DNA of 38,887 nt, taken from a virus. A program made the translations under genes and the position numbers. Shown one piece after another: positions 3,665-38,290 of this stretch; the stretch's first letter is position 1; each line of letters opens with the position of its first letter. The notes under the pieces were generated by a model that ran no database searches, was not told the origin of the DNA, and saw only the letters and a list, made by a program, of their open reading frames with translations. Location of the stretch: positions 1 to 38,887 of IMG/VR virus record IMGVR_UViG_3300017742_000034. One strand, 5' to 3'.

Positions 3665-6214
3665 TTAAGTTGTTTCATAACCAGAAATTCCTCCCTGGAG
3701 AGTTAATTTATCAGATATTATTACCCAGCCCCATTCTGTTTTAGTATCTTCCTGATCGATCACTGTGGTTAAACTGTAATTCCTTCCTCTGTTAATTGAT
3801 TCTGCCCCATCCCATATTAAATCTAAAACTCTTACCACAGTAGCGCCTTGGTTCGCATGCCCAGCATTGGTGGTCGTATCTATTGTATGGAATCCATCAT
3901 ACATGCCGAAATTTCCAGTCTGCATCCAACTCTCCCAAACATTGGAAGATGATGGTATTTTGATCCTATATCTAGGAAAATGTATTCTTACTGTTCCATA
4001 ATAACTAAGTGTTTCGGTCTGCCCAGGGGGATTACTATTCTTTTTGTTTTGAGTCCATAATGTTGCTTGATTTTTAATTATCACAGTAAGTTTTTGTCCA
4101 GGATACAGTCCCGTAGGAAAATTAAAGTTACCTAAGTAATTCTGTTGCCCAAGAGTACCACCACCACCTAGATTATTATCATACCCTAACCCATATCCGA
4201 AATTTAAGAAAATCACAGGCTTATTAAGATCTGCTTGTAATGGCATTGCTCCTGGTGTTGGGAAAGTTGTACTAAACGAAGGTACCGCATTCACCAAATC
4301 CCATCCATATTCATACGGTGCTACTTGTGGAGAAGCATAGTCATACATCGGATTACTATTTTGTACACTATTTGTGTTATTATCTCTCTTATGCACATAT
4401 GTTCCTGCAATAGCAGTTTTATTTGAATTAGCTGAAAAGTATTCGTTATACTCATTAAAAGATCTTACACTTATTGTTAATGAATTATCCCACGCACTAA
4501 ATCCATAGGCTGGAACTGGACTTGATGGTCCTTCACTTCCCATTCCTACTCTAATCATTCCTGCAGATACTCCCGATATTGTTTGAGTACCACCTAGCCA
4601 CTCATGCATACTTGATCCTGGTGTCATACCAAAGTAATTTGCATCTCCCGTTTTAATAAAAGTAGAGGTACTACCTGTCAATACACCTTGCATATTATTA
4701 TATTGGTAAGTATTAGCATTAGGAGGGGTTGTACTAGCTGGTATTCCTGACTTTGTCCAAGTACTTTGCCCAACAAACCTAGTGTGTGGCATAAGTGGCT
4801 TAGTAGGATCGCCGTTTGTATAATAATTATAATCAAGAACTATACTAGGATTAGCTAGCGCACTAGATTGTTCATTTCTTAAAATTATTTGACTATTTCC
4901 TCTAATATAAATATCACCACCTACATCCGGATCACCAGCTGGCGGAAGCTGCCTTAGATTTTCTATAAAAATATCTGCAGTGCCACCAATTTTACTTTGC
5001 TGTATTGTAATATCACCATCAGATGATGTTGCTAATATTCCACCAGTAGCTGATCTTAATTGAATTTGCCCAGCAGGACTAGTTCCTTGTGTAGTATCTA
5101 ATTTTAATTGCCCACCTGAATTTAATTGAATATTTTGATTTACAGATGATGTTAAATTAATTAAACCTGCCTGTAATTGTATAACACCAACTTGCGAGTT
5201 TTGTGATAAGTTAACAGGAAACCCACCACCTGCCTGGAAAACTGTAGTGTTTACTGTACCTGCTGTAGTTAGTACAAATTTGTTTCCAGCGGCATTTGAA
5301 CCAGTACCTACATCAATAAGAAAGTCTGAATTTTCACCACCAAAAGCTGCTATATTTTCAATTCCTGTTTGGAAAGTAATTGCTTTACCTGCAGTATATT
5401 GTTGAGATCTTTTTGGAACATTAACCTCAAAGCCTATTACTTGATTAAGATTTAATGCAGAGGTTGCTTGTTTTGTTGCTGATAAGACTAACCTATCATC
5501 ATTACTAATTCCAATGCTACTCAATTGGCTTATATCTACTTGTTCAAATTTCTCAGGATTACCGACCGTATAACCCCCATGAAATATTATTCCTCTGGCC
5601 GTTGCATCTTTCTGATGAATCATTAATGATGCCGCTGGCGTGTTTAGCGTTGTGGCTATAGCATCAGGTATTACATAAGAAGAAGTTAAAGGTATACTGA
5701 CGTCAACAAATGGTGTATTAGAAACAGCGCCCCCGATCATAACTGAAGGTATTCCTTCATTTGCAAGATCTGCACCGTTACCAAATCCGATAGGTCCATT
5801 ATACACAGCAGTCTGTCTAGATATTTGGATTGGTCCACCAAAGTCTAACCCAAAACCACCACTCTGCCCAGCAGGTCCAGCAGGTCCCATTAAATCTACT
5901 GTTGTTATAGCCCATGTTAATCCAGTGTATTCCCATACTTGCCCATTAAATTGCAAATAGTAATCGCTTTCAAGTGGTGTGCTTGTAGGCGGTGCAACAT
6001 TAGGACTAAGACCTGGTGCAACTATAGAAACATCTTCATACCAAGTAGTTCCTTTTGGCCCTCTGCCTCCGAGAGGTCCTACTGGACCGATAGGACCAGC
6101 TGGTCCTGCGGGCCCTCCACCATTAAGTAACAATTGATCAAAATTAAAATTAGTTTTATCGACCAGTTGTGAAATAGTATCTGATGCTATTATTTCTTGT
6201 ATAGTGATTGGCAT
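3665..6214 (-). CDS. Tail fibre with N-terminal anchor and collagen-like segment
   Basis: This 849-residue protein has a fibre architecture. Residues 1-30 (MPITIQEIIASDTISQL ... NFNFDQLLL) form a short anchor also found at the start of the 216-residue protein at 17049-17699. Residues ~32-55 are Gly-X-Y collagen-like (GPAGPAGPIGPVGPLGGRG), with another short run at ~110-119 (GPAGPAGQSG). The middle (~320-430) is a repetitive Asn/Thr/Ser/Gln beta region (NLTSSVNQNIQLNSGGQLKL) typical of beta-helical shafts. The C-terminal third is Gly/Tyr/Trp-rich and probably globular. Collagen-like shafts trimerise, and such proteins usually carry receptor-binding tips. The start at 6214 gives the anchor motif directly. 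A promoter-like AATATATAA lies 68 bases upstream, inside the preceding gene. The receptor is unknown. Confidence 0.82.
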   Translation of the reverse strand: MPITIQEIIASDTISQLVDKTNFNFDQLLLNGGGPAGPAGPIGPVGPLGGRGPKGTTWYEDVSIVAPGLSPNVAPPTSTPLESDYYLQFNGQVWEYTGLTWAITTVDLMGPAGPAGQSGGFGLDFGGPIQISRQTAVYNGPIGFGNGADLANEGIPSVMIGGAVSNTPFVDVSIPLTSSYVIPDAIATTLNTPAASLMIHQKDATARGIIFHGGYTVGNPEKFEQVDISQLSSIGISNDDRLVLSATKQATSALNLNQVIGFEVNVPKRSQQYTAGKAITFQTGIENIAAFGGENSDFLIDVGTGSNAAGNKFVLTTAGTVNTTVFQAGGGFPVNLSQNSQVGVIQLQAGLINLTSSVNQNIQLNSGGQLKLDTTQGTSPAGQIQLRSATGGILATSSDGDITIQQSKIGGTADIFIENLRQLPPAGDPDVGGDIYIRGNSQIILRNEQSSALANPSIVLDYNYYTNGDPTKPLMPHTRFVGQSTWTKSGIPASTTPPNANTYQYNNMQGVLTGSTSTFIKTGDANYFGMTPGSSMHEWLGGTQTISGVSAGMIRVGMGSEGPSSPVPAYGFSAWDNSLTISVRSFNEYNEYFSANSNKTAIAGTYVHKRDNNTNSVQNSNPMYDYASPQVAPYEYGWDLVNAVPSFSTTFPTPGAMPLQADLNKPVIFLNFGYGLGYDNNLGGGGTLGQQNYLGNFNFPTGLYPGQKLTVIIKNQATLWTQNKKNSNPPGQTETLSYYGTVRIHFPRYRIKIPSSSNVWESWMQTGNFGMYDGFHTIDTTTNAGHANQGATVVRVLDLIWDGAESINRGRNYSLTTVIDQEDTKTEWGWVIISDKLTLQGGISGYETT

Positions 6215-10943: not shown

Positions 10944-10959
10944 TTATCTTTCACTTTTT

Positions 10960-10968
10960 TTATATATT
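10960..10968 (-). promoter_or_regulatory. Late-promoter-like motif before the 1572-residue gene
   Basis: AATATATAA followed by A-rich sequence lies 16 bases upstream of the ATG at 10943, in one of the longer gaps (46 bases). It matches the class seen at 24395, 27809, 28167, 34389 and 36064. A weak 7-bp inverted repeat (10947-10953 with 10972-10978) flanks it. Confidence 0.5.
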
Positions 10969-10989
10969 CACTAAAAGACATGGTTAAAT

Positions 10990-14917: not shown

Positions 14918-17026
14918 GATACAGTCATATACAAATGTTAACACACCTCTCTCTGTACAAATTAAATCAATAATAGGTAAAGAGCTTATTTGTGAATTAG
15001 GTATTGTTGCTGCCAATTTTCCAAACGATCCATTATTAAGTCTGCTTGGCGCGTCGGTGTATATTTTTATATCTCTAGATCCTAACAGAGGAACATTATT
15101 AAATGTTAATCTAATAGTTTGCCCTGTTCTCCATTGAACAGCAGTATCATCAATATAAATAGAAAGATCACCATTTGCTTGATTAATAGTATCTAATCTT
15201 AACATATTAGTATATGTTCCTAGTGTTGTAAATACCTCTGGGTTAACAACGTTAAGATTCAGAGGAGCTGTTGTTGTAATTTGAACATCACTACTATCAA
15301 AAGGAACCATAAAGTTATATGCCTGGACATTATTTGATATTTGAATTTGATTAGGAGTATTAGTATTTACTGTTATACCTTCACCCTGTCTAACTACCTC
15401 AGTATTATATTGTAAAGTTTGAGAAACATCTCCATTGGCTAATGCCTGAATTTCATCAGAATTTTTAGCAATTAAATCTAATAAGGTAGTACTACTCGCA
15501 AATGCCAAAGATGCATTATCAAGTTGTATTTGTAAATTATTAATTTGTGATTGTAAAAAAGCAGATGTACTAACTGAATTTAATGTATTTTCAACTGCAT
15601 TTAATCTAGTCTGTATATCCGTTAATTCTACTTGTTGTGTTTGAAAAATTTGTGCAGATGCTTGAAGCTGAGCAGATGCATCTGAGAATAGCCCCATTGA
15701 AAAGGTATTGTAATCATTTACAATTGTATCAATACCTGCACTACCAGGAGAAGCATCAAATCTTAAATTTATTTTAAACCCATAGCTGTTACCATTTTGC
15801 CCGGTTACTAAATTAGGTTTATATTTTGGGTATCTTTGAATATATCCACCGTCGGTAGTTGGTGTAACGTTATCTAATAATAAAATACCGTATAAATTAG
15901 TTTTTGTTTTAGATGAATCACTTAAGTCCACCATATCATAATAAACAGCTACTGCATTAAATTCAAAAGATTCAGCTAAATCAGTTCCATTAAATTGTGG
16001 TATTGTACTTATCGTAGCATCCTTTACAATTTGCTCATAATCATTAGGATTAAAATCTACACTAATTCCATCTAATTCACTCCTTACATATGCTGAACCA
16101 GAAAACCCTGATGGGTTATTATAATCAGCTGGATATTTTCTAATATTTGCATTAAGAACACTAGTAAATGTATTAGGTTCTGTAAAATATGAATCAACTG
16201 TGTTTGGTGGCGTAGCCTCATCCATCCAATTGGCATCTGGATCAGTATAACCCGCAGGCCCTGCGCCCTGTAATGGTTGATCATAATCATACCAAGCTAA
16301 AATATCTAAACCTTGTGGGTGGACTGTTGCTGTATTCCTACCCATTATGTACTCGCTTGTACCTTGTATTTTTAATGATGGTTGATAGTTATTATCAGAT
16401 ACTGAATCAAAGAGGATTGTAGGTGTTCTACCCACTTCTGTTGGTACATTAATATATAATTCTGTATAAGCTTCTCCGGCTTTATCTACATTATTTACAA
16501 TATCAATTTCACCAATATATCTAACAACCCTTCTATACTGTCTAGTCCCAGACGTTACCTCATCCTCCTCGACAAATCTCGGCGTAGTAATACCGTTGGC
16601 TTTTTCTAATGGTGTGGCTTCTCTAAACCTCATTGCACCAGTTTCTTTTAACCATTTAAAAAATACTCTCTCAGTAACAGTTAAATTTGTAGTATTATCA
16701 TATGATGAGTCGCTAATAATAAGTTCTTCTAAATTCAGCGCGTAATTCTGAAGACTCTCAGTAAAATTAACATTAGGATCACCTTTTAACCCACCGCTCC
16801 AAATTGCACCATCTATAGTATCAAACTGCATATAGTTTTGATATTGGCTAAATGTTGTTGGATCTAATCTATCCATATCTGGAAGATTAAGAAGCACAAA
16901 CTTAGAAAAGACTAATTTAAGCTCGTCATTATTAAGAGTTCTAGATAAGTCTTTAGCAGAAGAAGAGAACGTATAAAACGATCCCCCATCTGCTTGTGGA
17001 GTTCTGATTAAGGGCGTTGTTGCCAT
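14912..17026 (-). CDS. Structural protein with internal coiled coil, baseplate periphery
   Basis: The protein has 704 residues. The N-terminal ~150 residues include FSKFVLLNLPDMDRLDP and VFFKWLKETGAMRFREA, a mixed alpha/beta region. A beta-rich middle follows (~160-440). Residues ~446-535 form a Gln/Leu/Asn coiled coil (AQIFQTQQVELTDIQTRLN, then FLQSQINNLQIQLDN), and a beta C-terminal domain (~545-704) closes with VLTFVYDCIK. A central coiled coil between beta domains is common in trimeric baseplate-attached proteins. It follows the gp7-like and 216-residue genes, in the positions T4 gives to genes 8-11, but there is no diagnostic motif to name it. The leader (AAAGAAAGAAACTATAC) is purine-rich without a true Shine-Dalgarno. 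Confidence 0.75.
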   Translation of the reverse strand: MATTPLIRTPQADGGSFYTFSSSAKDLSRTLNNDELKLVFSKFVLLNLPDMDRLDPTTFSQYQNYMQFDTIDGAIWSGGLKGDPNVNFTESLQNYALNLEELIISDSSYDNTTNLTVTERVFFKWLKETGAMRFREATPLEKANGITTPRFVEEDEVTSGTRQYRRVVRYIGEIDIVNNVDKAGEAYTELYINVPTEVGRTPTILFDSVSDNNYQPSLKIQGTSEYIMGRNTATVHPQGLDILAWYDYDQPLQGAGPAGYTDPDANWMDEATPPNTVDSYFTEPNTFTSVLNANIRKYPADYNNPSGFSGSAYVRSELDGISVDFNPNDYEQIVKDATISTIPQFNGTDLAESFEFNAVAVYYDMVDLSDSSKTKTNLYGILLLDNVTPTTDGGYIQRYPKYKPNLVTGQNGNSYGFKINLRFDASPGSAGIDTIVNDYNTFSMGLFSDASAQLQASAQIFQTQQVELTDIQTRLNAVENTLNSVSTSAFLQSQINNLQIQLDNASLAFASSTTLLDLIAKNSDEIQALANGDVSQTLQYNTEVVRQGEGITVNTNTPNQIQISNNVQAYNFMVPFDSSDVQITTTAPLNLNVVNPEVFTTLGTYTNMLRLDTINQANGDLSIYIDDTAVQWRTGQTIRLTFNNVPLLGSRDIKIYTDAPSRLNNGSFGKLAATIPNSQISSLPIIDLICTERGVLTFVYDCIK

Positions 17027-24374: not shown

Positions 24375-24392
24375 TGAAGAACACTAATTTTT

Positions 24393-24403
24393 TATTATAT
24401 ATT
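24393..24403 (-). promoter_or_regulatory. Late-promoter-like motif before the gp25-like gene
   Basis: AATATATAATA lies 18 bases upstream of the ATG at 24374, in a 60-base gap. It would place the wedge genes (gp25, gp6, gp7) on their own late transcript. Confidence 0.5.
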
Positions 24404-24434
24404 CTCTTTTTATTTAATAGCTTTCAGATTATAA

Positions 24435-25298
24435 TTATCCTGTGAAAAAGTAATCAACACCTTCATCACCTTTAATTTCTTCTACAACTCTGTCAACTTC
24501 TTCTCTACCTTCCGATGAAATCATATCATAATTAATTGTAATATTACCTGGAAGATTAAAAGAAAACGTTCCTAAGATTCTAGAGAGTTGAATTTTAGCC
24601 ATTCCTATAACATATCTTTGGAATGCTTCATCTTCAAATAAAGCACAATCAGGAATCGTAGAAAATATTTCAAATATAACCGCATTCTTAGGTAGCTCTC
24701 CTTGAAATCTAAACTTTTTTGTAAGCCTATTATAAGTATATGATATTTGTGGTAATAAAACTTGTCTTGCATTATCCATAAATAATGAGTTAACAACATA
24801 GTACATTAAATTTTCACTTCCAATACCAGCACCATAAACATCATCATAAATAAATTTATCAATTGAAAAATCTACATCGTCTGCATTAAAGCTCATACTA
24901 CCAAATCCACCATCTTCTCCACTAAATCCACCAATCTCAAATACATCATTCACAGAGTATACCCTAGACGGCATCTGTACTATACCCCTTGGGTTAGCTA
25001 ATTGATTTTTATTTGTTATAGTTTCATTGTCTACACCAGTAGCATGCGGTACTCCTTGTTTAAAATCTGGTTTTCGTAATGCGCCTGCTGGTAATGCAAT
25101 ATACATTTGCTCTACACTATCCTCGTATATTTTATAAAAATAATTCTTTGCCCTATTTATAATATTAGCCAATTCTTTTTTTGGAACCGTAAATGGAATC
25201 TGGCAAGCAATAGTTAAATCATCATTAATTATTTTAATTAATTCATCTAAACACGCAGCTTCTTCTGGGTCATTACAATAAGTATTCTTGTTAGCCAT
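24435..25298 (-). CDS. Putative virion structural protein, role uncertain
   Basis: The protein has 287 residues. The N-terminus has a helical region (DELIKIINDDLTIACQIP, IINRAKNYFYKIYEDSVEQ) and a Gly-rich loop region ~125-145 (FEIGGFSGEDGGFGSMSFN). The C-terminal third has a regular helical pattern (DEAFQRYVIGMAKIQLSRIL, then GTFSFNLPGNITINYDMI, and GREEVDRVVEEIKGDEGVD). This ending recalls neck or head-tail connector proteins of large myoviruses, but that is a memory of pattern, not a match I can prove. It lies between the amidoligase and gp25-like genes. No membrane segment. A short AT-rich element (AAAATATAA) lies 6 bases upstream of the ATG, probably too close to be its promoter. Confidence 0.68.
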   Translation of the reverse strand: MANKNTYCNDPEEAACLDELIKIINDDLTIACQIPFTVPKKELANIINRAKNYFYKIYEDSVEQMYIALPAGALRKPDFKQGVPHATGVDNETITNKNQLANPRGIVQMPSRVYSVNDVFEIGGFSGEDGGFGSMSFNADDVDFSIDKFIYDDVYGAGIGSENLMYYVVNSLFMDNARQVLLPQISYTYNRLTKKFRFQGELPKNAVIFEIFSTIPDCALFEDEAFQRYVIGMAKIQLSRILGTFSFNLPGNITINYDMISSEGREEVDRVVEEIKGDEGVDYFFTG

Positions 25299-25304
25299 AC
25301 TTTT

Positions 25305-26597
25305 TTATATTTTTTCTATTTCAATTATTTCAGCATTTTCAAATCTAGCCATTTTAGTAGCTCTACCTTTTCTAAATATTCCACCGTCCATTTCTCCACT
25401 GAATACACCTTTAGCACCAAAGACATAAGAATCTTTACACATTACATTTTTGCTAACATAAGAATCTTCTATCTTACAATCAGCAGCATCAGTTGCACCA
25501 AATAAATTACTTTCAAATAAAGATGAATTTACTAGTTCTGAACTAAAGATATCACAATTTAAAATATTACCTTGAACTTTACAGTCTACAATATCAATAC
25601 CTCTTATCTCAAAGCATTGCATTAATTCAGCATTCTTTAATTGAATTCTTCCGGTATCAGCATCATAATTAATCAGCCCTTCCTTTAATCCTGCTAAAGT
25701 TAAAAGTTTAAAAACTTTTTCTCTCATCTTAGGATAAAATGTTTCTACAATTTGGTCATATGTTTGTAGATCAACCATTAATTTAACCTTAGGAAATTTT
25801 TTCTTAAATGCTTGGTAGTCTTTATAAGATTCAACTATACCACTATGTTTTTCTAAAACAGCATCTAATTTTTTTATATCTTCTTTAGTATATTTAGGAT
25901 ACATTAAAGATTCATATAATGATACAACAAAATGTTCTGTTAAATTCATTATAGTATTATACTTCTTTTCATAATCCTTTCCACCTAAATATCTAAACTC
26001 TATATAGTTCTTAGGTAATTTAGAAAAGTTTACCCCGTAATACTTTTCAGACACAAACATATAATTTCTCCAAGAAATTTTTTCTGGTGAAGGTTGTGTC
26101 ATTCCACTTAAAGGGACTACGAATTTTATTGATTTTGCGTAAACTGAATTTTTTCTGTTAGGAAATGCTTCATAAATTTTATCTTCATTAAAATTTAAAA
26201 CAAATTTACCAATATCCAAACTAGATACATTAGTAGGAGTTCCTAATTTCTTTCCATCAAAAGCTACATTAATATGAATGCTACATCGCTCATTAGTGGA
26301 TCCATTTTCACGAATCCACTTTAGAGTTTTTGCAATAATAAGTTTTGATTCAACAAACGGCATTGGCCCAGTGACCAATTCAATCATACCACTCCCCCCT
26401 GAATTATCAGGCTCTAATTTAAATACTTCATCACTAGGGGTAAATTCACTGTGAGCTTTTTCTTCTATTTGTATTCTTTTATTTAAAGTATTAGAAAGGC
26501 TTCTTTTAACCTCATCTAATCCTTCATTTGCAAAGAATTCAAATTCTAATCCAATTTTTGATGCATATATAGCATTCAGCTGTTCGTTAGTGTACAT
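25305..26597 (-). CDS. Amidoligase (COOH-NH2 ligase) fused to a beta-helix-like C-terminal domain
   Basis: The 430-residue protein shows the signature of the putative amidoligase family (glutamine-synthetase-like fold; ATP-dependent ligation of a carboxylate to an amine). Visible motifs in order: IGLEFEF (15-21), LEPDNS then MIELVTGPM (61-79), CSIHINV (105-111) and YIEFRYLGG (198-206). The Glu of GLEFE, Asp64, Glu73, His108, Glu200 and Arg202 would be metal/ATP and substrate ligands. The usual HxH is HxN here. Residues ~210-310 are helical. From ~320 to 430 short strands repeat every ~8-10 residues (IRGIDIVDCKVQGNILNCDI, SSLFESNLFGATDAADCKI), a beta-helix or pentapeptide-like stack that may dock on a substrate. 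The gene sits between S1-like and structural genes, with a ribosome-binding-site hairpin just upstream. Substrate unknown; a virion protein or host wall peptide is plausible. Confidence 0.8.
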   Translation of the reverse strand: MYTNEQLNAIYASKIGLEFEFFANEGLDEVKRSLSNTLNKRIQIEEKAHSEFTPSDEVFKLEPDNSGGSGMIELVTGPMPFVESKLIIAKTLKWIRENGSTNERCSIHINVAFDGKKLGTPTNVSSLDIGKFVLNFNEDKIYEAFPNRKNSVYAKSIKFVVPLSGMTQPSPEKISWRNYMFVSEKYYGVNFSKLPKNYIEFRYLGGKDYEKKYNTIMNLTEHFVVSLYESLMYPKYTKEDIKKLDAVLEKHSGIVESYKDYQAFKKKFPKVKLMVDLQTYDQIVETFYPKMREKVFKLLTLAGLKEGLINYDADTGRIQLKNAELMQCFEIRGIDIVDCKVQGNILNCDIFSSELVNSSLFESNLFGATDAADCKIEDSYVSKNVMCKDSYVFGAKGVFSGEMDGGIFRKGRATKMARFENAEIIEIEKI

Positions 26598-26601
26598 GTA
26601 G

Positions 26602-26633
26602 TTCCTGATTTGTTTATATATTCAAACCAGGAA
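26602..26633 (-). promoter_or_regulatory. RNA hairpin covering the amidoligase ribosome binding site
   Basis: On the minus strand the arm UUCCUGGUUUG (26633-26623) pairs fully with CAAAUCAGGAA (26612-26602) over 11 bp (one G-U pair), with a 10-base loop AAUAUAUAAA. The 3' arm contains AGGAA, the only good Shine-Dalgarno candidate for the ATG at 26597, four bases further on. The hairpin starts 4 bases after the S1-like stop. There is no U-tract, so it is not a typical terminator. The loop is itself a copy of the promoter-like motif found elsewhere in the window. A transcript started there would lose the 5' arm and free the site. Confidence 0.7.
26613..26622 (-). promoter_or_regulatory. Late-promoter-like motif in hairpin loop before the amidoligase gene
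   Basis: AATATATAAA occupies the loop of the hairpin, 15 bases upstream of the amidoligase ATG. It matches the motif found before other genes. Late T4 promoters (TATAAATA) are similar in character and lie at similar distance. The start site has not been seen. Confidence 0.5.
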
Positions 26634-26637
26634 TAGG

Positions 26638-27780
26638 TTATGCTATGTTCATTGTAATCTTACGATCACTAACATTTACACTACCAATTTTTATATTTAC
26701 AGAATCACCTTTAGATAAATCAGCACCTTTTAATTTAGATTTATGTATTAATCCACTGATTCCTTTTTCTAATTCAACAAAAGCACCGTATGAAGTTATT
26801 TTAGTTACTTTACCTTCAGTAATCATCATAGGCTTATATTTATCATCTACACCATCCCATAAATCAATTTTAGGACCAAGCTGACTTAATATAATTTTTC
26901 TATCTGATATAACTTCTTTAGCCCAAAAAGTTATTTCATCACCTGGCTTAATACTTCGGTCGTCTAATGATTTTTGCAATTCTTCAGTCAATTCAGCTTT
27001 AGGAATTAAGCCAGTTAAGCATTCATCAAATTCTGCAAATACCCCAAACTTAGTAGTTCCAGTTACAAACCCAGTTCTTGGTTCTTTAATAGTTTCATTT
27101 AATTTTTCTATTGTTGTTGGAATCATTGTTCTTAAATATTCTCTGTGTGATACTACGACAGTATCTTTTTCTCTTGAGAATGTTATTGGCATAACAACTA
27201 TTTCTTTTCCAACAATAGCTTCAAAATTATGCAATTTATTTAAACCTGCTAATGACCCTGGCATAAAGCATTTAATACCTGCTACATCTACCCAATAACC
27301 ACCATGAATTAATTCTTTAACTTTAGCAGTAAATCCTACTGTAGAATTACCAATGGATTCTTTAATTTCTTTTAACTTAACTTCTCTTATTGCATCAGAA
27401 ATAGAAGCAATAACATCTCCAGTTTTTTGATTAGTTTTAATTTTAACATCGATCTCCATACCAACCTCTAATTGTTCTACAATATAATCAGGTTCTTTTG
27501 TTAGAGTACAATATGCAGTATATTTAGATTGAATATCAATAAGGGCTCTTTCTTTATCTTTAGATATAAAGGTAACCTCCCCTCTCGTGGTATAAGCCAC
27601 ATTGTCTTCTATCAGTTGTGTTTTTTGTAAAGTAGGATCTGAAACTCCATACATCGAGAGTACATCTGCTGCATAAGCTTCATTACACATTAATTTTGTT
27701 CCCTCAGGAACTTGAACTTTTACTGTCTTTGTATCAAATGGATCATCACTTAATTGGATTGTGATTTCTTGTTCGGTCAT
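26638..27780 (-). CDS. Ribosomal protein S1-like RNA-binding protein with four S1 domains
   Basis: The 380-residue protein is built of four S1 (OB-fold RNA-binding) repeats: ~65-128 (RGEVTFISKDKERALIDIQS), ~146-213 (KVKELIHGGYWVDVAGIKCF), ~233-300 (GFVTGTTKFGVFAEFDECLT) and ~319-379 (GKVTKITSYGAFVELEKGIS, SGLIHKSKL). Repeats 3 and 4 are most typical. Host S1 (bS1) has about six domains, unfolds mRNA on the 30S subunit and helps start translation; the N-terminal ~60 residues here (QEITIQLSDDPFDTKTVKVQ) could replace the ribosome-anchoring part. I infer a role in translating phage mRNA, most of which lacks Shine-Dalgarno. Decoy or RNA-stability roles are alternatives. The gene lies inside the baseplate block and ends 40 bases before the amidoligase start. 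AAATATATAA lies 28 bases upstream. Confidence 0.88.
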   Translation of the reverse strand: MTEQEITIQLSDDPFDTKTVKVQVPEGTKLMCNEAYAADVLSMYGVSDPTLQKTQLIEDNVAYTTRGEVTFISKDKERALIDIQSKYTAYCTLTKEPDYIVEQLEVGMEIDVKIKTNQKTGDVIASISDAIREVKLKEIKESIGNSTVGFTAKVKELIHGGYWVDVAGIKCFMPGSLAGLNKLHNFEAIVGKEIVVMPITFSREKDTVVVSHREYLRTMIPTTIEKLNETIKEPRTGFVTGTTKFGVFAEFDECLTGLIPKAELTEELQKSLDDRSIKPGDEITFWAKEVISDRKIILSQLGPKIDLWDGVDDKYKPMMITEGKVTKITSYGAFVELEKGISGLIHKSKLKGADLSKGDSVNIKIGSVNVSDRKITMNIA

Positions 27781-27808
27781 TTTTTATTTTTTACGAGGTT
27801 ATTATAGA

Positions 27809-27818
27809 TTATATATTT
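27809..27818 (-). promoter_or_regulatory. Late-promoter-like motif before the S1-like gene
   Basis: AAATATATAA lies 28 bases upstream of the S1-like ATG, in the longest intergenic gap (83 bases). Apart from this motif I see nothing in that gap: no clear hairpin, no small gene. Confidence 0.5.
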
Positions 27819-27863: not shown

Positions 27864-28148
27864 TTAGGTAATTGCACCTGCACCTGCACCTGTACCAGTT
27901 CCAGGACCACCCGTGGTTGCTACGACAGTTGTAACAGCAGTAGTTACCAATCCTGATTTTATATAAGCATCTATAGCCGGTGCTGCAATTTCAGCAAATG
28001 CCTTACCGCCTGCTTTCTTTATATCAGTATTAGATACAGTTGCTTTTCCATTTTTAATATTTTCACTTGCCTTATTTTCCATTGCAGTTTCACCCGCAAT
28101 AAATGCAGCTTTCATAGCTGCTTCTAAAATACTTGGTACTAATGGCAT
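27864..28148 (-). CDS. Small Ala/Gly-rich protein following the spike
   Basis: The 94-residue protein starts with an Ala-rich helical half (MPLVPSILEAAMKAAFIAGE, then KAFAEIAAPAIDAYIKSGL) and ends with a Val/Thr strand and a Gly/Thr/Ala tail (VTTVVATTGGPGTGTGAGAG). I recognise no catalytic motif, no signal peptide and no PAAR repeat. Its place directly after the spike gene is where contractile systems often carry a small tip or assembly protein, so a spike-associated role is the simplest inference. The leader is A/T-only (TTTTAAATT) and a promoter-like AAATATATAA lies 18 bases upstream. An 83-base untranslated gap, the longest of the window, separates it from the S1-like gene. Confidence 0.65.
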   Translation of the reverse strand: MPLVPSILEAAMKAAFIAGETAMENKASENIKNGKATVSNTDIKKAGGKAFAEIAAPAIDAYIKSGLVTTAVTTVVATTGGPGTGTGAGAGAIT

Positions 28149-28166
28149 AATTTAAAATTTTATAAT

Positions 28167-28176
28167 TTATATATTT
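28167..28176 (-). promoter_or_regulatory. Late-promoter-like motif before the small Ala/Gly-rich gene
   Basis: AAATATATAA lies 18 bases upstream of the ATG at 28148, overlapping the stop codon of the spike gene by two bases. The leader behind it is A/T only. Confidence 0.42.
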
Positions 28177-32571: not shown

Positions 32572-34371
32572 TTATGAATCAATTAGCATTTGTGTTGTAT
32601 TACTAACCGCTTCGGCTGTTGCTGTTAAACCTAAGTTACCTTTCGCAGACTTATTAGATTTAATATTACTAATCTGTTCATTATTAAAATCAGCTGCTGC
32701 TGCTTGATTAGTACTAGGTTTTAATGATTGTGTTCCAATGTCTGGTATAGAGCCATAAGTAGCAACTTCTTTACCTGCTAAATTTAATACATCTTCCATA
32801 CCGGCGGCAGATGCGTATATTCTACCCTTTCCAGCATTAAACATATTTTCTATATCACCTTTATCACGAGGCTTTGCATGTTTCATATCTATTTCAAATT
32901 TTACCTCCATAGGAAAATCATCATAACCTAAACCTTGGCCTAATGTCATTGTAGAGTTATCACAAATCATATTACCCATCATAACGATAGGATTCAGTGG
33001 ATTACCAACAGTTATATGCCAGTCACCAGTAGGTTCACCACTAATAAAAGCTTTTGTTGCTTGTGTACCTGTTTGCCCACCTACTTGGCTACCTAAAAAT
33101 CCTCCTAACATATTACCTAGTAAATTCTTACCAACCTTTTTTAATCCATCTACAAAACTGTTTGCAGAAAAACCGCCTTCCTGATCGCCAAATAATCCTT
33201 TGAATCCATTCTCAACATCATTAACTACACTTCCCATATACCCAGAAAAATTACCACCTCTTAATAAATTAGGATCTCCAAATTGACTAGCTACATAACC
33301 TGCACTACCATAATACCTATGCCCACCACCAAAGAATTGAGCATTATTAGTAGACATGGTTAACATATTACTAATAATATCAATCATTGCTATTTTAGGA
33401 TTAATATAGCTTAACGATTTTAATTCATATTCAAATGTTAGTTTCATATCATTTGAAAACTTTAATCCTCTATCTCTAATTTGTGTAGTATCAATTACGT
33501 TAACAGGACCTAAAACAAAATTTGCATAAGTAGTACCTAACCTATCTGCTGTACTACTACCTGCACCATTTTGTGCTCTAAACTTAGCTCCAGAACTAAC
33601 ATCCTTTGCAGAATCAGCTATTGCCCTACCTACACCTCCAATTTTGTTGTAAAAAGGTTGCTGAGTATAACCTCCTCCAGCACCACCTTGGTCAATAGCT
33701 TCAAAATCAGCTTTAAGTTCTTTGTAATTTAATCCAAAAGACATTTTTAATAATTCTTCTAATGTATTACCTGCGGTTTCACCTAAATAAGTTATAGCAG
33801 TTACACCAGCAATCTGAGTTGCATCAACTTCATCATTCTCAGAATCCTTAGGCCTAACACTATACTTATAAATATTATCAGGAATAGGTGTTGGAAATCT
33901 TCTTAATGTAATTAAATGATTTACTGGAATCTTTTTGTAATATTTAGAATATAAAAAATCTGATGGCTTATAACCTATCTTAGGATACTTTTCTTCAAAG
34001 TAATTAATTATCTTTGGCAATGAAACTTGATTAGCTTGTGTACCACCCATTAATGGATTATCTGCCTGGTCAATAAAATTATTACCTTGTGAAGATTCTA
34101 GGTTTCCATAAAATCCTTGAAAATTAAAAAGAGCATACTTATTAGCAATAGATGATGGAATTGGGGTATCAGACATACCTTTTGCCACGGTTAGAGAATC
34201 CGCTACTGCTGAATTAGTATAAAAGTTTTTTGAATATAAGTCACTTACACCTTTAGCAAAACCTGTAGATTCACCACCAAAAGGTCCTAACCTATCGTTG
34301 TTTAACTTATTAGGTCCAGGATACATTGCATCATTAAGACTACCTATTTTCTCACTTAAATTAAATCCCAT
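32572..34371 (-). CDS. Tail-tube-like/baseplate protein upstream of the LysM and hub genes
   Basis: The protein has 599 residues. The C-terminal domain (~440-515) reads WHITVGNPLNPIVMMGNMIC, then TLGQGLGYDDFPMEVKFEID and MKHAKPRDKGDIENMFNAG; this GNP..P.. / D.P..V.F.... pattern is the part that looks like tube or tube-cap proteins of large myoviruses (T4 gp48/gp54 role). A middle section ~320-430 is Gly/Asn-rich (NAQFFGGGHRYYGSAGY, NLLGNMLGGFLGSQVGGQTG), perhaps contacting membrane or tape measure. The N-terminus is Asn/Gly/Pro-rich. AAATATATAA lies 17 bases upstream, and with the change from small unknown genes to hub genes this probably marks the start of the hub transcript. Assignment is inferred; confidence in the gene is high. 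Confidence 0.62.
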   Translation of the reverse strand: MGFNLSEKIGSLNDAMYPGPNKLNNDRLGPFGGESTGFAKGVSDLYSKNFYTNSAVADSLTVAKGMSDTPIPSSIANKYALFNFQGFYGNLESSQGNNFIDQADNPLMGGTQANQVSLPKIINYFEEKYPKIGYKPSDFLYSKYYKKIPVNHLITLRRFPTPIPDNIYKYSVRPKDSENDEVDATQIAGVTAITYLGETAGNTLEELLKMSFGLNYKELKADFEAIDQGGAGGGYTQQPFYNKIGGVGRAIADSAKDVSSGAKFRAQNGAGSSTADRLGTTYANFVLGPVNVIDTTQIRDRGLKFSNDMKLTFEYELKSLSYINPKIAMIDIISNMLTMSTNNAQFFGGGHRYYGSAGYVASQFGDPNLLRGGNFSGYMGSVVNDVENGFKGLFGDQEGGFSANSFVDGLKKVGKNLLGNMLGGFLGSQVGGQTGTQATKAFISGEPTGDWHITVGNPLNPIVMMGNMICDNSTMTLGQGLGYDDFPMEVKFEIDMKHAKPRDKGDIENMFNAGKGRIYASAAGMEDVLNLAGKEVATYGSIPDIGTQSLKPSTNQAAAADFNNEQISNIKSNKSAKGNLGLTATAEAVSNTTQMLIDS

Positions 34372-36982: not shown

Positions 36983-38290
36983 TTAAATTCCTCCTCCGTC
37001 ATTAAGTATTCCCCATTTAGTAGCAAGACTTGAGCGCGCAGATACTACTGAAGGGTTTCCTAAGCTATATTGACTATTACCAAAGTCTACAGTACCACCC
37101 GGCCAAGATGCAAAATTATAAGCATCCCATGCAATTAATAATGCATCATAATTAACAGTAGATAATGTGAAGGTAGATGATGCATTAGTCAAAGGAGTGT
37201 TACCAACAGTGTATATGTTCCATGCGTCTACGTCCCAATTTCCAATAGGTTGATCAAAAGCGCTAGTACCTTTAAACATATTTCTCATATCAACCACATT
37301 TGCAGTATCCCAACCACTAATATTTTGGTTAAAATTTTGAGCATTTTCAAACATACTAAACATGGTTGTAACCCTCTTAGTATCCCATCCTGTTATATCA
37401 TCGTTAAAGATTGTACAATCTTCAAACATCATATACATATTAGTCGCGTATTCCATATCCCAAGAATTCATAGATGCACTATTAACATTATCAAAGACAG
37501 AGCAATTATTAAACATCATTTTAAAATCAAGAGAAAGAGTTCCAGTGTTTGCCCCTACATTAGAAAACATCTTAGCATTCATGAGTACACACCCGTTAAA
37601 CATTCGTTCAAATCTATAACAATTACTTACATCCCATAACGCAAAAGCTAACGGCCCTAGAGCATTTGTTCCATACGCCAATTTTATACACCCACTAAAC
37701 ATTATTTCTAAAATATCACATTGACTTACATCCCAATTCCCAATATTATTAATTGTAGAAAGACTACTACAACCACTAAATAATCCTCTTGCCCCTCTAT
37801 TATTACGAGTGCTAAATGTAGCATGAAGAGGAAACCATGGCGTATCAGGTGCTGATATTTTTGATAAGCTGGTACATTGCCTAAAGGTTTGCCCAGCTGT
37901 TCCTACTTCACCTCCTGTTAATTTTAGATCTCCCCATTGTGTTATTTCCAATAATTTCTTACCATCAGATTTTCCTGGAATATTAATATTCCAAAAACAA
38001 AATCCTGCAATATTACCTTCAGCTGAAATTGTATATGTACCAGATGATGCATAAGTATGCAAACACTCTGTAGCATAATTAGAGGAATCAACATTAGAAG
38101 TTTGACCATCACCCCAGTCTATAGTAAAAGCAATAGTATATCCCAAGCGATCTGTTCCATCAACAATAGGAAAATAAAACTGATTAGTTGCAGATGGTGT
38201 CTGTTTATATGTGGTCTGTATAGCAGTATTAACTACCATTTGAAATCTCCCTCTACCTGAGCCTCGTCTACCTGATAAAATCTTTCTCAT
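36983..38290 (-). CDS. PKD plus BspA/DUF285 repeat surface protein, likely host-contact protein
   Basis: The 435-residue protein begins with an Arg/Gly-rich leader (GRRGSGRGRFQ), then a PKD-like beta domain (~52-92; FTIDWGDGQTS, HTYASSGTYTI), then at least six BspA-type repeats (~150-350) with recurring W-D-V/T...M..MF..C segments (EIMFSGC, ERMFNGC, KMMFNNC, MYMMFEDC, MFSMFENA, MRNMFKGT) and FNQNISGWDT spacers. The end (NYDALLIAWDAYNF, ... LATKWGILNDGGGI) resembles Bacteroidota surface proteins. Such repeats bind host cells, matrix or other bacteria. There is no signal peptide, so it is probably virion-attached. It lies 4 bases after the collagen-like fibre gene, suggesting a fibre tip or partner. 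I infer acquisition from a host-like genome. Confidence 0.82.
   Translation of the reverse strand: MRKILSGRRGSGRGRFQMVVNTAIQTTYKQTPSATNQFYFPIVDGTDRLGYTIAFTIDWGDGQTSNVDSSNYATECLHTYASSGTYTISAEGNIAGFCFWNINIPGKSDGKKLLEITQWGDLKLTGGEVGTAGQTFRQCTSLSKISAPDTPWFPLHATFSTRNNRGARGLFSGCSSLSTINNIGNWDVSQCDILEIMFSGCIKLAYGTNALGPLAFALWDVSNCYRFERMFNGCVLMNAKMFSNVGANTGTLSLDFKMMFNNCSVFDNVNSASMNSWDMEYATNMYMMFEDCTIFNDDITGWDTKRVTTMFSMFENAQNFNQNISGWDTANVVDMRNMFKGTSAFDQPIGNWDVDAWNIYTVGNTPLTNASSTFTLSTVNYDALLIAWDAYNFASWPGGTVDFGNSQYSLGNPSVVSARSSLATKWGILNDGGGI

Follow-up and report, generated by a model that had tools for sequence, protein, structure and literature searches.

A start-masking RNA hairpin whose loop contains a phage late promoter is likely to lie directly ahead of the gene for an amidoligase-like protein in the phage DNA examined here (IMGVR_UViG_3300017742_000034, positions 1-38,887; this whole stretch of 38,887 nucleotides is referred to as the window). 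All of the genes concerned are read from the minus strand, and the amidoligase-like gene starts 40 nt beyond the end of a gene for an S1-domain protein (S1). The relevant features are as follows.

27780..26638, minus: S1-domain gene, 380 aa, an open reading frame with a PF00575 match (E 1.5e-20) and a TAA stop at 26640-26638
26633-26623, minus: hairpin 5' arm TTCCTGGTTTG, from pairing, fold and stem scan
26622-26613, minus: 10-nt loop consisting of the late-promoter-like motif AATATATAAA, placed by its motif class and near-invariant among relatives
26612-26602, minus: hairpin 3' arm CAAATCAGGAA, with AGGA at 26606-26603, ending 4 nt ahead of the ATG
26605..26609, minus: predicted transcription start at about 26607, on the model of T4 late promoters 6 nt past the motif, so that the leader would be roughly 10 nt long (CAGGAACUAC)
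26597..25305, minus: amidoligase-like gene, 430 aa, ATG at 26597, with a glutamine synthetase-like N-terminal part and a beta-helix C-terminal part
27808..27817, minus: late-type motif AATATATAAT before the S1 gene; no masking hairpin
28166..28175, minus: late-type motif AATATATAAA before a 94-aa gene (27864..28148); again no masking hairpin

The two arms pair as a stem of 11 bp with a single G-U, which covers positions -15 to -5 relative to the amidoligase start, and the 46-nt minus-strand RNA has a predicted folding energy of -12.3 kcal/mol (z -4.7), a stability equalled by 0 of 200 dinucleotide shuffles. Coordinates and fold thus agree with an earlier note on this DNA, which had described an 11-bp stem with one G-U, a promoter motif in its loop and AGGAA in its 3' arm, and had named folding of the region as a check. 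Across the whole minus strand of the window (stems of at least 9 bp with at most one G-U), this stem ranks first of 17 and is the longest near-perfect one, the next best being 10-bp stems with no more than 2 G-C pairs. The fold of the plus strand at the same site was set aside, being weaker (z -1.8) and opposite to the strand on which the genes are read; an Rfam scan of the window returned 0 matches at gathering scores.

The label 'amidoligase-like' is a fair one for the 430-aa protein, judged from sequence comparison and a predicted structure. The window protein has no match to PF12224 (Amidoligase_2) at E<=1, and among its relatives that of locus L059 passes this model (23.9 bits, cut-off 22) and that of L066 scores 15.7 bits. 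When the window protein was modelled with AlphaFold (pLDDT 83.5), the best PDB structures found by Foldseek were glutamine synthetases (E 2.1e-5, with a low TM score of 0.28).

Maintenance of the stem among relatives

Relatives of the amidoligase gene were gathered by two scans of IMG/VR. Their leaders keep the loop motif, and most have complementary arms: when the upstream arm was shuffled, the natural arms paired better than 95% of the shuffles (p<0.05) in 27 of 36 distinct leaders. With strong pairing defined as <= -9.5 kcal/mol, the 249 motif-bearing leaders of the fetched loci include 26 strongly paired cases among 34 amidoligase leaders (2.9 expected) and 4 among 191 leaders of other genes (2.5 expected), these being counts of sequences and not of independent events, as the main-clade leaders share ancestry. 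The covariation score is 0.137 for the stem pairing and falls to 0.024-0.048 when the pairing is slid, and in the outermost pair of the stem A-T replaces T-A in 7 distinct alignment rows. The earlier note had also suggested looking for compensating changes in both arms among related phages, and such changes were found, up to the replacement of entire stems. Around the same loop, both arms are different in L059 (TACCAGGTTTAA/TTAAACCTGGTA), in L060-L061 (ATTCTGCCTGAA/TTCAGGTAGAAT) and in L136 (GTGTGCTTGCC/GGTAGGCACAT). In the protein tree L136 falls in a supported group separate from L059 and L060, and the stem has therefore likely been re-built separately at least twice. Together, these comparisons support the view that the hairpin is maintained in evolution as an RNA structure.

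A palindrome arising by chance and without function would be helped by the ease with which short stems form in AT-rich sequence, and by one sub-clade that lacks the stem, but is scarcely credible in view of the z-score, the rank of the stem as longest on its strand, the 26 strongly paired leaders where 2.9 were expected and the rebuilt stems of L059, L060-L061 and L136. It is also very improbable that the inverted repeat serves as operator DNA for a dimeric repressor. The arms are indeed symmetrical about the promoter, and there is a precedent in I-TevI, which binds an operator over its own late promoter (PMC2988022); however, the unrelated arms of L059, L060 and L136 would each demand a new protein specificity, and at the fifth pair counted from the loop 21 of 25 distinct rows have G-U, which in a DNA palindrome is a mismatch.

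The exceptions among the relatives bear on what the hairpin does. In the sub-clade formed by L039, L046, L051-L058 and L074 both the promoter and the adjacency to S1 are kept while the stem is weak or absent, and masking therefore appears dispensable there. In L124 a gene has been inserted behind S1 (L124:4150-5190), the late-type motif now precedes this inserted gene, and both motif and hairpin are missing before the amidoligase gene. The interval between S1 and the amidoligase gene in L138 is occupied by a small gene and an ordinary terminator (AAGGGAC...GTCCCTTTTTTT); here the motif is retained and the masking stem is gone. Both of these cases, two in number, fit the proposal that the stem matters only where read-through from S1 reaches the amidoligase gene. 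They also weigh against a role for the stem at the 3' end of the S1 mRNA, as terminator, processing site or stabiliser. Such a role is suggested by the position of the stem directly behind the S1 stop; yet no U run follows the stem, in the rebuilt versions the position of its 3' arm follows that of the amidoligase ATG, and it is missing behind S1 in the two loci in which another gene comes next, L124 and L138, the latter having an ordinary terminator instead. We give this explanation very little credence. The distant amidoligases of phages of 462-735 kb (L152-L156) do not show the arrangement of a motif within a hairpin, and a search of genome contigs for hosts or proviruses carrying the amidoligase gave 0 relatives.

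A late-type promoter motif in the loop

Boxes of the AATATATAAA/T-like type stand some 20-40 nt ahead of many gene starts in the window. The class was examined in G001, a relative of 181 kb (contig IMGVR_UViG_3300031519_006853, read as L142-L151), where 22 gene leaders have [AG]ATATATAA[ATG] and the two controls, its reverse complement and its complement, score 0 each; a reversed-motif control (19 leaders) was discounted because it overlaps the motif itself, the other two controls being cleaner. The genes so marked are unevenly distributed, with 21 of 115 outside a block at 60-120 kb and 1 of 86 within it (Fisher p 5e-5), and include those for the portal, the head maturation protease and the tail sheath, whereas the genes for a UvsX-like recombinase, a DnaB-like helicase and a DNA ligase have other leaders. 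Neither the T4 consensus TATAAATA (6 leaders versus 6 for the reversed control) nor the Bacteroidota motif TAnnTTTG (6 versus 7) is enriched in the G001 leaders. On these counts the loop motif belongs to a recurrent, genuine class of late-promoter-like elements and is not an accident. The relative, as distinct from the 38.9-kb window, also encodes a gp55-like late sigma factor (G001:15042-15320; phrog_234, E 3.8e-14), and the motif class, its structural-gene carriers and this gp55-family protein together make a late promoter read by the gp55-like sigma the natural reading. The identification of the loop motif as a promoter in the earlier note is strengthened accordingly, and an uncultured phage family gains a late-promoter motif together with a candidate sigma factor.

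Several other features of G001 were recorded. A second promoter-like motif, [CG]ATATAA[AT]AATA, is present in 10 leaders (0 for its reverse complement), for example before the genes at 5899, 7426, 81234, 85827 and 97671 and including the UvsX-like and DnaB-like genes; it is perhaps a middle-class promoter. There are two sigma-like genes, one sigma70-like (phrog_1740, 51885-52524) and one gp55-like (phrog_234, 15039-15404), which may serve the two motif classes. Of 201 called genes, 198 are on one strand and 3 on the other, and a tmRNA gene with the tag DNAELAMAA adjoins a tRNA-Ala gene (L144:5184-5605).

The proposed switch and its likeness to T4

In the mechanism that we propose, RNA read through from upstream, which presumably exists over the S1/amidoligase junction, would fold into the hairpin, hide the amidoligase start and remain silent in translation. 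RNA begun at the loop promoter, with its start predicted at about 26607 and so inside the 3' arm, would lack the 5' arm and be translated from a leader that is short (about 10 nt) and open. Since the first RNA would be masked and the second open, the firing of the gene's own late promoter would alone decide when amidoligase is made and in what amount. The predicted cost of opening the start region, calculated as that of keeping -10 to +9 open, is 13.3 kcal/mol with both arms present and 1.8 kcal/mol for RNA begun in the loop region, 6 nt beyond the motif. Calculated likewise, gene e of T4 gives 14.8-15.3 versus 1.5-4.3 kcal/mol, depending on the promoter, and T4 soc a smaller gap (9.7 versus 7.3 kcal/mol).

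Hairpin and late-promoter arrangements are known for the T4 genes e, soc, 49 and I-TevI (PMC3014915; PMC2988022), and in the case of e the synthesis of lysozyme from the long RNA is reduced 100-fold (PMC3014915). The earlier appeal to e and soc as precedents is borne out by this literature and by the similar opening energies of e. As in T4 e (PMC3014915), the late promoter lies in the loop region, the initiation site of the read-through RNA would be hidden, the gene's own RNA would be without the 5' arm, and the predicted opening cost is nearly equal. In contrast to the present case, T4 hides a strong Shine-Dalgarno (SD) sequence, AGGAGGU, while here it is the start region that would be hidden, with an AGGA that is not conserved; the promoter is TATATAAA and not TATAAATA; host group, gene and phage lineage all differ, and the amidoligase switch is a predicted one. 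Further likenesses are provided by T4 soc, 49, I-TevI/II/III and segB and by mobE of Aeh1, in which a hairpin covers the initiation region of a late gene in polycistronic RNA and the promoter is sited such that the late RNA escapes it (PMC3014915; PMC2988022). The homing endonuclease cases guard against early synthesis of a nuclease, whereas here the gene is amidoligase-like and its upstream neighbours are seemingly late too. At every step that sequence can test, the arrangement corresponds to a switch of the T4 e/soc type in another phage lineage, in which the SD is not the conserved target. No prior report of a promoter-in-hairpin arrangement in jumbo or Bacteroidota phages was found in the open-access literature.

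The purpose of the hairpin would be timing or dosage. T4-style timing, in which early or middle RNA entering the late block is silenced by the same hairpin and only late transcription yields the enzyme, is a reading we regard as possible while leaning somewhat against it. T4 e, soc, 49 and I-TevI operate in this way, and the nearly one-stranded gene order of the 181-kb relative (198 versus 3 genes) means that early RNA can enter late genes. However, the late motif also stands ahead of S1 and of the preceding gene, such that the read-through RNA may itself be late; the nearest motif-poor block in the 181-kb relative ends about 20 kb upstream, and insulation of amidoligase dosage from S1 read-through fits equally well.

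The S1 stop is 4 nt ahead of the 5' arm, within the footprint of a terminating ribosome, and a ribosome finishing S1 in the window could open the stem. Translational coupling of this kind, making amidoligase output from the long RNA proportional to that of S1, is nevertheless unlikely: in L059 and L060 the S1 stop is farther upstream although the stem is strongest there, and coupling alone needs no promoter in the loop, where the promoter is always found. The start-masking hairpin with an internal late promoter is the preferred reading, and the rebuilt stems, being natural compensatory mutants, make it testable with simple reporters.

A further point is which element the stem hides. The earlier note had proposed a ribosome binding site of the SD type, good and standing out by being hidden; AGGA is in the 3' arm as claimed, but it occurs at -4 to -18 in 3 of 30 window genes (amidoligase included) and so is not conspicuous by itself, and it is absent from the rebuilt stems of L059, L060 and L136. 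In Flavobacterium johnsoniae, moreover, AGGA (a weak SD) added to a reporter leader has virtually no effect (PMC9976891), and initiation is modulated by secondary structure in the vicinity of the start (PMC6847099). The SD proposal is therefore not upheld, and these comparisons identify the start region as the conserved element that the stem hides. Because initiation in F. johnsoniae depends on structure around the start and is hardly affected by AGGA, hiding the start region should work without an SD.

Several observations relate to the host. Genes for ribosomal protein bS21 are present at G001:114138-114287, G002:80186-80335 and G003:66548-66706. The one bS21 tested, that of G001, is closest among solved ribosomes to the bS21 of F. 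johnsoniae (entry 7jil, which we take to be the F. johnsoniae ribosome). Baseplate matches are in many cases to phages of Prevotella, Tenacibaculum, Flavobacterium and Chryseobacterium, and also to phages of Rhizobium and Sphingomonas. The leaders of the window are SD-poor. The family is one of large, uncultured, marine phages whose hosts are probably Bacteroidota, which would hardly use an SD site. It resembles the bS21-encoding Bacteroidota phages described previously (PMC9723584) in that G001-G003 encode bS21 and the structural genes form the late class; promoters, by contrast, go unmentioned in that paper (term count 0). The arrangement would place a translational switch of the T4 type in phages that do not belong to the T4 group, and in probable hosts without SD use it separates the hiding of a start from the hiding of an SD. 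The predicted late leaders of about 10 nt also suggest why genes of this family lack ribosome binding sites.

Further candidate promoter-in-hairpin leaders

A weaker hairpin of the same kind precedes a 1572-aa gene of the window.

10946..10979, minus: arms GTCTTTTA (10979-10972) and TGAAAGAT (10953-10946) around the loop motif AATATATAAA (10968-10959), p=0.004 versus shuffles

In L216-L219 the leader of the same gene (upstream of position 501) has a perfect rebuilt stem of 12 bp, TTTAATTTTCAC/GTGAAAATTAAA (p<0.002, 0 of 500 shuffles), although with a modest predicted opening cost, and pairing of <= -9.5 kcal/mol is found in 8 of 24 leaders of the gene, versus 1.0 expected. We tentatively put forward, as an idea somewhat short of probable, that large SD-independent Bacteroidota phages reuse promoter-in-hairpin leaders, built afresh across genes and lineages (amidoligase, the 1572-aa gene and perhaps a 120-aa gene), and that these leaders would insulate single genes of a one-stranded genome from read-through translation by hiding the start region and not an SD. 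The leader of gene 32572..34371 was rejected as a further case, its arms pairing in some relatives and not in others.

In the leader of the 120-aa gene (window 24375-24435), bases adjoining the ATG pair with the beginning of the promoter motif. Its stems are altered in L003, L136 and L059, and the pairing is mostly not significant against shuffles, with the exception of L003 and a few others; as a third promoter-in-hairpin case it is suggestive. Elsewhere in the window, 36983-38290 encodes a DUF285 (BspA-like repeat) protein (E 2.2e-36), possibly linked to the host surface, in the same gene block as the tail and baseplate genes.
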